Source of the DNA: Pseudomonadota bacterium
GTDB taxonomy: Bacteria; Pseudomonadota; Alphaproteobacteria; Puniceispirillales; Marisalimonadaceae
Reading direction: 5' to 3'
Length of the DNA stretch: 56,481 bases
NCBI GenBank assembly: GCA_028382005.1
Contig: JAOESH010000011.1
Coordinates: 1-56,481, forward strand
Shown here: positions 2,681 to 8,703 of the stretch, piece after piece
Layout of the letters: each line of letters begins with the position of its first letter
Numbering within the stretch: the stretch's first letter is position 1
The notes under the pieces: model-generated
Seen by the model: only the letters and a program-made list of their open reading frames with translations
Told to the model about the DNA's origin: nothing
Database searches by the model: none
Made by a program: the position numbers and the translations under genes

Positions 2681-7574
<4,894 letters not shown>

Positions 7575-7584
7575 AATTCTCTCC

Positions 7585-7614
7585 GTAACAAATTAGTTGC
7601 AAAATGCAAGTTAC
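7585..7614 (-). promoter_or_regulatory. Hairpin between glycine riboswitch and dadA ribosome binding site
   Basis: Read on the minus strand, GTAAC directly following the aptamer's GGG run pairs with GTTAC just before the ribosome binding site. It encloses a second stem, TTGCA with TGCAA around a three-base loop. The two stems stack on the 5' side with a seven-base bulge on the 3' side. The element links the end of aptamer II to the GGAGAG site, so it is a candidate expression platform controlling translation. No T-run follows, so it does not look like a terminator. Confidence 0.5.
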
Positions 7615-7774
7615 CCCATCTGTCACGGAACCTGAAAGATTGACCAATTATGGCTTACCCCTTCGGTGGTCGTTAAAAAACGACACTCTCCAGATTATCA
7701 ACTTTTTATGTTCCATTTGCCTGAGAGTTTCCGGGGTGGTTGCTCCTTCGGCGGTATAAAAAAACGCTCTCACA
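7613..7774 (-). promoter_or_regulatory. Tandem glycine riboswitch upstream of dadA
   Basis: On the minus strand the two-aptamer glycine riboswitch pattern is clear. Aptamer I, about 7774-7705, has the core GCCGAAGGAGCAACC and then CTCTCAGGCAAATGGAAC. Aptamer II, about 7695-7613, opens with CTGGAGAGTGTCG and has ACCGAAGGGGTAAGCC and then TTTCAGGTTCCGTGACAGA. A short linker joins them. Such riboswitches are usually on-switches for glycine cleavage genes. Here the only downstream gene in range is dadA, about 40 bases away. Confidence 0.93.
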
Positions 7775-7836
7775 TAAAAAGACACTGATAATATATATTA
7801 TCAATTAGAAAAAAAAATACAACATAATTAAGTATA

Positions 7837-8703
7837 CTAAGTTTTTCTTTGGTACTTTGTAGCCATAAAAACACCAATAGATGAGACAAATAAACCAAAA
7901 AAATCTAAATAAGAAAATCGTTCATCTAGAACGTAATAGGCCATTAATGCTGAAACAGGAGTAATTAAAAAAAATAAAGTAGAAGTTTCATTTGCTTTGT
8001 TGTGCTCTAACAGCCACATCAAAATTAAAAAAGCACCAAGTGAAACAGCAAATATCTGCCAGGACATAGCCATAAACAAACTATAAGTAAAATTAATATA
8101 GTAATTTTCAAAGCAAAGAGTGATTATAATATAAAAAATGGAAGCGCTAAATGCTTGTATAAAATTATTTGCAGATAAAGGGAGTTCGTCAACGATTTTT
8201 TTTTGCCAAATAATTCCAAGTGAAGAAGAAATTAATCCAACTAACCCAGATATAAATGCAAGCAAAGTTAAACCTTCTTTTAAATCAGATAAAATAATTA
8301 TAAATGCCCCACAAAACCCAAGTGACATTCCTAACCATTGATTTCTAGTTAGTTTTTCATTTAAATAAATTCTTGCTAATATAGAAGTTAAGATAGGTTG
8401 AAGTGATACAATTAATGCTATTAGACTAGCGGAAATACCTTTAGATAAGGCATAAAATACACCACCTAAATAAAATCCATGAAATAACAAACCACTAATG
8501 GATGCATTGCGAAAAGCTTTAATAGAAATTGTTTTATCTTTTGAAAAACATAAATAAAAAATAAAAAATATAAACGCAACAATGGCAAACCTAAAAGAGA
8601 GGGAAAGAAATGGGCTTGCATTATCAACTATTATTTTACTTGTAATAAAAGCGGATGACCATAATGTAACAAACGTTAAGGGTATTAAATTAAAAATGTA
8701 AAT
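7837..8703 (-). CDS. EamA/DMT-family permease without a canonical start codon
   Basis: This is a drug/metabolite-transporter (EamA) permease, probably an inner-membrane exporter of unknown substrate. The frame from the first usual start, a TTG at 8490, gives only 217 residues and lacks the first membrane segments. The same frame remains open upstream to a TGA at 8707-8709 and encodes LTFVTLWSSAFITSKIIVDN then PFLSLSFRFAIVAF, the typical EamA N-terminus. With it the protein is about 288 residues and ten membrane segments, as expected. No ATG, GTG or TTG exists in that extension, so initiation must use ATT or ATA, or the start has been lost. The rhodanese gene ends 19 bases upstream. Confidence 0.8.
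   Translation of the reverse strand: MYIFNLIPLTFVTLWSSAFITSKIIVDNASPFLSLSFRFAIVAFIFFIFYLCFSKDKTISIKAFRNASISGLLFHGFYLGGVFYALSKGISASLIALIVSLQPILTSILARIYLNEKLTRNQWLGMSLGFCGAFIIILSDLKEGLTLLAFISGLVGLISSSLGIIWQKKIVDELPLSANNFIQAFSASIFYIIITLCFENYYINFTYSLFMAMSWQIFAVSLGAFLILMWLLEHNKANETSTLFFLITPVSALMAYYVLDERFSYLDFFGLFVSSIGVFMATKYQRKT

Follow-up and report, generated by a model that had tools for sequence, protein, structure and literature searches.

A conserved tandem glycine riboswitch marks a DadA-like flavoenzyme subfamily and may control a glycine-to-malate route in SAR116 bacteria

The window, by which we mean the whole 56,481-nucleotide stretch of DNA that was analysed, comes from a SAR116 alphaproteobacterium, SAR116 being a marine group of the Alphaproteobacteria, and carries on its minus strand a tandem glycine riboswitch in the 5' leader of a gene for a DadA-type FAD oxidoreductase. 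The two aptamers lie head to tail and together span 7610–7784: aptamer 1 (7699–7784) reaches 60.0 bits against RF00504 (E 5.9e-10 in a scan of the whole window on both strands) and aptamer 2 (7610–7703) 56.9 bits, both over the full model (1–94 of 94) and both above the gathering score of 32 bits. A sequence-only reading had placed a tandem glycine riboswitch on this strand in front of the DadA-type gene and had named the Rfam covariance model as a way to check it, and on both counts the search confirmed it; the location that it gave, 7613–7774, was right, but the extent was slightly short. The scan of the whole window returned aptamer 1 only, aptamer 2 coming from the genome search and from a scan of 7590–7704 alone, and such scans can thus overlook a good second aptamer. 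We rejected RF03166 (glycine-GGAnGA, a member of the same clan) as the class of the tandem, the score of 69.8 bits being under its cut-off of 110. Besides these two aptamers, the host genome (1.81 Mb, 80.7% complete) contained no match to RF00504. The ligand is presumably glycine.

The gene itself (6342–7574, minus strand) encodes 410 amino acids and starts 35 nt past aptamer 2; because its reading frame extends to a convergent one reading as gyrB, it forms a single-gene unit. The reading frames of the other strand we take, from reading their translations and with no family search, to be dnaA, dnaN, recF and gyrB. On the upstream side, an EamA-type transporter gene on the same strand as the riboswitch (7837–8490) ends 52 nt before it and, given this position, should escape its control. 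Among curated protein models, the DadA-type enzyme scores 629.5 bits for NF009074 (PRK12409, "D-amino acid dehydrogenase"), above the cut-off of 494, and the Pfam DAO family is matched at 216 bits. Classical DadA (NF001933, PRK00711) was rejected at 313.5 bits under a curated cut-off of 383, as was ThiO glycine oxidase (TIGR02352) at 133.6 bits under 250.8, although the window enzyme shares the DAO family with ThiO and its top sequence matches among solved structures, at low similarity, are glycine oxidases (E 1e-20). More broadly, it matches models of the fold family that contains the glycine and sarcosine oxidases. Judged by family models and phylogeny, the window enzyme is a member of a separate subfamily, NF009074, sister to classical DadA, and the earlier suggestion that oxidation of glycine would extend the substrate range of DadA falls away, the enzyme not being a classical DadA.

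Within the window's family, the RNA was found in 53 of 58 genomes and the gene likewise in 53; these are the same 53, with the two adjacent, and in all of them the gene starts 19–36 nt after the RNA, as read by eye from the tables. Two aptamers are present in 52 of the 53, the contig of the remaining one beginning inside the tandem. Neither RNA nor gene was found, at the limits used, in the other five genomes, which are 57–78% complete; SAR116 genomes are for the most part incomplete. Among the best 80 of 454 relatives of the gene, the closest come mostly from SAR116. Outside that group, RF00504 lies above the cut-off just upstream of the gene in all 33 genome loci (19 + 14), taken from the same best 80 of 454 relatives and therefore not a sample of all relatives. 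These loci (L079 and L081–L112) belong to Tateyamaria and other rhodobacters, Ancylobacter, Bosea, Pelagibacterium, Comamonas, Granulosicoccus and others, and every one of the 16 plasmid loci examined (10/10 and 6/6) has the riboswitch upstream as well, again above the cut-off. In these scans, which can miss a good second aptamer, 7 of 19 and 9 of 14 genome loci showed a second one above the cut-off, and the 16 plasmid loci showed none; most of the loci covered by core-motif scans have the core motif twice. The pairing of riboswitch and enzyme, whose conservation in relatives the sequence-only reading had wished to see checked, is accordingly not special to the window's genome but is present in alpha-, beta- and gammaproteobacteria. 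At two Comamonas loci (L096, L099), nhaA-I motif RNA matches were seen at 5559–5622, about 1.3 kb past the enzyme gene.

A class-level control of 289 genomes gave 73 homologue places besides the window, and 20 of them were examined (the first 19 and G064, omitting second G100, G214 and G263 in between): the riboswitch is present in all three regions of 53–54% identity, and RF00504 gave no match at two regions of 43–50% identity or at any of 15 distant paralogues of 32–37%. Two small alphaproteobacterial genomes, G248 (locus L133) and G093 (L134), carry NF009074-like homologues of 50% and 43% identity, and in both we found no glycine riboswitch and no GcvP match. In a tree of 60 rows, consisting of the window, 28 of the 80 loci, ten plasmid loci, 20 class-level loci and Escherichia coli DadA, the riboswitch label is explained by one change on a branch with support of 97/88, with Rfam as the basis of the label in the window and in 37 of 41 other labelled rows, and the motif scan only in L036, L041, L061 and L070. 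The exact point of the gain is unsure because two long-branched rows adjoin that branch (L133 and L134 sit on long branches, and their placement is unsure). Under the family models, five riboswitch-bearing homologues score 646–746 bits for NF009074, L133 and L134 have it as their best model yet stay under the cut-off (493.3 and 459.7 bits), and for three homologues of 34–37% identity the best model is NF001933. In the alignment, Val55, Tyr379 and His385 are invariant in the 42 rows of the riboswitch clade and occur in 0, 0 and 1 of the 16 more distant rows. E. coli DadA, which serves D-alanine catabolism, is 30% identical to the window enzyme over the tblastn match; unlike it, the E. coli protein falls among the classical rows of the tree, has Thr for His at 385 and Pro for Val at 55, and has a gene that is followed by dadX, and E. 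coli is absent from the control genomes having RF00504.

The RNA between the aptamers and the gene suggests how glycine could be read out. A Shine–Dalgarno-like GGAGAG, read from the sequence at 7579–7584 on the minus strand, has its first base 10 nt from the start codon, and in the free fold, according to both the minimum-energy structure and the partition function, bases 7629–7618 pair with 7593–7582 in a 12-bp helix whose 3' arm covers the first three bases of the motif. The last five nucleotides of the 5' arm (7622–7618, CAGAU) are also the 3' strand of the P1 helix of aptamer 2, and the two helices, having CAGAU in common, are mutually exclusive. When P1 and P2 of aptamer 2 were imposed, the unpaired probability of the first three bases of GGAGAG rose from 0.00–0.07 to 0.44–0.59; the best fold with these helices imposed still has GGA paired, with another stretch, and falls short of the free fold by 10.7 kcal/mol with the energy of the ligand excluded, the energy model leaving out tertiary structure and ligand altogether. 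The stretch from aptamer 2 to the gene has no terminator-like site, and a terminator as the platform was rejected, the sole such site in 7500–7950 falling within the upstream EamA gene. Promoter-like sites in the same interval were not above chance.

Comparison across loci adds to the folding. Our alignment A1 was drawn from the window and 77 loci; with duplicates, N-containing and shortened rows removed, 46 distinct sequences were left, and in these 89.1% of the helix cells are paired, against 34–47% when the partner is slid by 1–3 bases. At one pair of the helix, 11 sequences show a change from GC to AU; six other pairs vary on one side only, between standard pairs. Pairs changed on both sides are no more numerous than in shuffles, whereas the number of cells so changed and the covariation score lie above all 500 shuffles; the covariation of the helix is, in sum, modest. 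The outermost pair of the helix does not form in most of the 46 sequences, and in one locus (L008) only 5 of the 12 positions pair. A predicted helix that covers the ribosome-binding site and excludes an aptamer helix suggests a translational ON switch.

What the enzyme may do with its substrate is indicated by its neighbours. Malate synthase consumes glyoxylate, and glyoxylate is what the oxidation of glycine would yield, that of D-alanine giving pyruvate. On plasmids of Aminobacter, Mesorhizobium and Sinorhizobium fredii, the enzyme gene is directly followed on its own strand by a gene annotated as malate synthase G, which begins 13–36 nt past the stop codon. In 15 of 60 listed enzyme-bearing plasmid records, the enzyme match and the malate synthase G match are neighbours on one strand (60 records being listed per query, out of 65 for the enzyme and 137 for malate synthase G, with adjacency judged by eye from the coordinates). 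Ten of the 15 records are from Aminobacter, two from Mesorhizobium and one each from S. fredii, Phyllobacterium and Microvirga; two belong to the same strain (Aminobacter sp. MSH1), and one plasmid pair spans the start of its record. The riboswitch is present in all eight of these records that were scanned. At none of the 33 genome loci outside SAR116 was malate synthase found adjoining the enzyme gene, and the next gene varies. A DadX-like alanine racemase, searched for with the first 207 residues of E. coli DadX, was not found near the enzyme gene; this is undiscriminating since the 15 distant paralogues lack one as well. Two loci show the enzyme and malate synthase in other states. In the pSymA plasmid of Sinorhizobium meliloti (L118, 3258–4130), the enzyme gene is followed by separate malate synthase-like pieces, as if the two-gene unit had decayed there, and in Phyllobacterium zundukense (L173) the stretches for the enzyme and for malate synthase that follow the riboswitch have no annotated genes, possibly because they are broken.

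The gene content of the window's family fits a route through glyoxylate. Malate synthase G was found in 42 of the 58 family genomes, above the cut-off in 40, and in all six good genomes; in the host it scores 1114.9 bits and lies on another contig than the enzyme gene. GcvH was above the cut-off in none of the 58. The search for GcvP gave a match in 19 at E 0.001, with nine above the low Pfam cut-off, and the matches are partial only, of at most 28.7 bits over at most 122 of 429 positions, so that we rejected them as true GcvP; in four other genomes tested, the true protein scores 391–592 bits, and the searches for GcvP and for GcvH each gave matches in 10 of 14 control genomes. Isocitrate lyase, similarly, exceeded the low Pfam cut-off in 37 of the 58 genomes and was rejected on matches of at most 55.9 bits over at most 115 of 526 positions. 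The look-alikes of the host, the only ones identified, are a homocysteine-synthase-type enzyme in the case of GcvP and a methylisocitrate-lyase-like protein in that of isocitrate lyase, and we read the other weak matches in the family as look-alikes too. With malate synthase kept and isocitrate lyase not found, the family apparently has a consumer of glyoxylate without the usual isocitrate source. The sister family offers a contrast: genome G270 has GcvP, a riboswitch before a reading frame that reads as GcvT and, at the limit used, no homologue of the enzyme, and G166 has GcvP, yet its sole riboswitch stands at the enzyme. Separate riboswitches are found near the gcv genes and at the enzyme in G232 and G309. 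Given this pattern and the searches for GcvP and GcvH, it is reasonable to think that the window's SAR116 family has lost the cleavage system. G232 (L157) has, in addition, a third tandem glycine riboswitch (C1:361285–361489), which is near neither the gcv genes nor the dadA-type gene.

Known glycine riboswitches offer partial parallels. The available text of PMC6944388 gives genes of the cleavage system and of transporters as the main targets, malate synthase is described as a target in SAR11 in the accessible parts of PMC2211319 and PMC2704228, enzymes of serine are also mentioned (in literature including PMC6944388, PMC3766115 and PMC2211319, as far as their consulted sections go), and PMC3766115 refers to twelve gene families of glycine metabolism given in a supplement. 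The gene is not named in the portions of main text available from PMC6944388, PMC12452182, PMC3766115 and PMC2211319, whose supplementary lists may hold it, and in the accessible literature that joins glycine riboswitches with the enzyme name or gene symbol the pairing was not found, although supplementary tables may list it. The tandem riboswitch of the gcvT operon (RF00504) is of the same RNA class, has tandem aptamers and is proposed to be activated by excess glycine for its degradation; unlike it, the window RNA controls a single flavoenzyme, in a family without detected GcvP and GcvH. The glcB riboswitch of SAR11, as described in parts of PMC2704228 and PMC2211319, ties the sensing of glycine to the step from glyoxylate to malate in marine alphaproteobacteria, whereas the window's sensor sits on the enzyme presumed to produce glyoxylate; the malate synthase of the host lies on another contig, and in the Aminobacter, Mesorhizobium and S. 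fredii plasmids malate synthase follows the enzyme directly. Oxidation of glycine by a DadA-named protein, which the sequence-only reading had put forward as an extension of the usual substrate range of DadA, has precedent in DadA6 of Cupriavidus necator, termed a glycine oxidase in sections of PMC12421819 and PMC11879842, the former also calling it an ortholog of ThiO and the latter reporting no growth gain from deletion of dadA6. The likeness to the window enzyme is one of name and of the reported conversion of glycine to glyoxylate; three other Cupriavidus plasmid homologues (L116, L117 and L123) do have the riboswitch. Glyphosate oxidoreductase is treated in the part of PMC12452685 available to us.

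We propose that, when glycine is scarce, the 3' strand of the P1 helix of aptamer 2 pairs with the ribosome-binding site and that, once glycine is bound, P1 would form, leaving the ribosome site more open and translation most likely ON. The NF009074 flavoprotein would then most likely convert glycine, and perhaps small relatives of it like sarcosine, into glyoxylate and ammonia by oxidation, its electrons going to what we suppose to be the respiratory chain. From glyoxylate and acetyl-CoA, malate synthase G would form malate, and in the SAR116 family of the window the pathway would replace the glycine cleavage system. We infer the ligand, the substrate, the ON direction and the electron acceptor alike, the riboswitch, the malate synthase neighbours and the precedent of DadA6 pointing to glycine as the substrate. 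Taken as a whole, a glycine-activated translation switch for a glycine-oxidising NF009074 flavoprotein, with glyoxylate passed on to malate and the cleavage system replaced, is an account that we hold with good confidence. The sequence-only reading had spoken of a glycine-sensing route to central carbon, and its guess about the pathway is probably right: the conserved pairing, the rhizobial malate synthase neighbours and the retention of malate synthase in a SAR116 family with no detectable cleavage system or isocitrate lyase support it well.

Other explanations have to be set against this account. The enzyme could be an ordinary D-amino acid (D-alanine) dehydrogenase, induced because high glycine disturbs the metabolism of D-alanine and the synthesis of the cell wall; the database name of NF009074 says as much, and the toxicity of glycine is discussed in the available text of PMC6944388. 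We think this highly unlikely, for the protein stays under the cut-off of classical DadA, its malate synthase neighbours indicate glyoxylate and not pyruvate, and the removal of D-alanine should, as we reason, worsen the damage done to the wall by glycine. A substituted glycine is a somewhat better candidate. Glycine betaine is used by marine bacteria, and with a protein that matches the fold family of glycine and sarcosine oxidases, the true substrate might be sarcosine, dimethylglycine or iminodiacetate, with glycine as the signal of osmolyte breakdown. The sensor, however, is of a class for glycine itself, and a search of three upstream neighbours showed no osmolyte gene among them. Moreover, since oxidation of the methyl group of sarcosine makes more glycine, activation by glycine would be sensible only with glyoxylate as the product, and we consider an N-substituted substrate unlikely.

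A third rival concerns the switch. Its direction derives from folding with neither ligand nor tertiary contacts, and the imposed aptamer fold frees the ribosome site only in part, so that the riboswitch could turn the gene OFF or be a relic with no function. Against both stand the retention of two aptamers in nearly all family genomes that have the RNA and the gain in accessibility at the start of GGAGAG when P1 and P2 are imposed, and an OFF switch or a relic seems to us improbable. The glycine-activated switch on a glycine-oxidising enzyme is the explanation that we prefer.

Beyond the sequence-only reading, the comparisons indicate that the riboswitch marks a distinct subfamily in which its pairing with the enzyme is widespread. 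That the proteobacterial "D-amino acid dehydrogenases" of NF009074 are misnamed glycine dehydrogenases with a riboswitch gained once, and that sensor, flavoenzyme and malate synthase have replaced the cleavage system in the SAR116 family studied, is a wider claim that we find fairly probable. If true, a widespread enzyme family that is apparently misnamed would have a function assigned to it through its regulatory RNA, and glycine riboswitches would have a further type of target besides those given in the consulted literature (the cleavage system, transporters, serine enzymes and malate synthase). In the SAR116 family, the pairing may stand in for the missing cleavage system, and a marine lineage may thus manage glycine without one, burning the excess through glyoxylate to malate rather than supplying one-carbon units; models of the flow of carbon, nitrogen and one-carbon units from glycine in SAR116 would then change.
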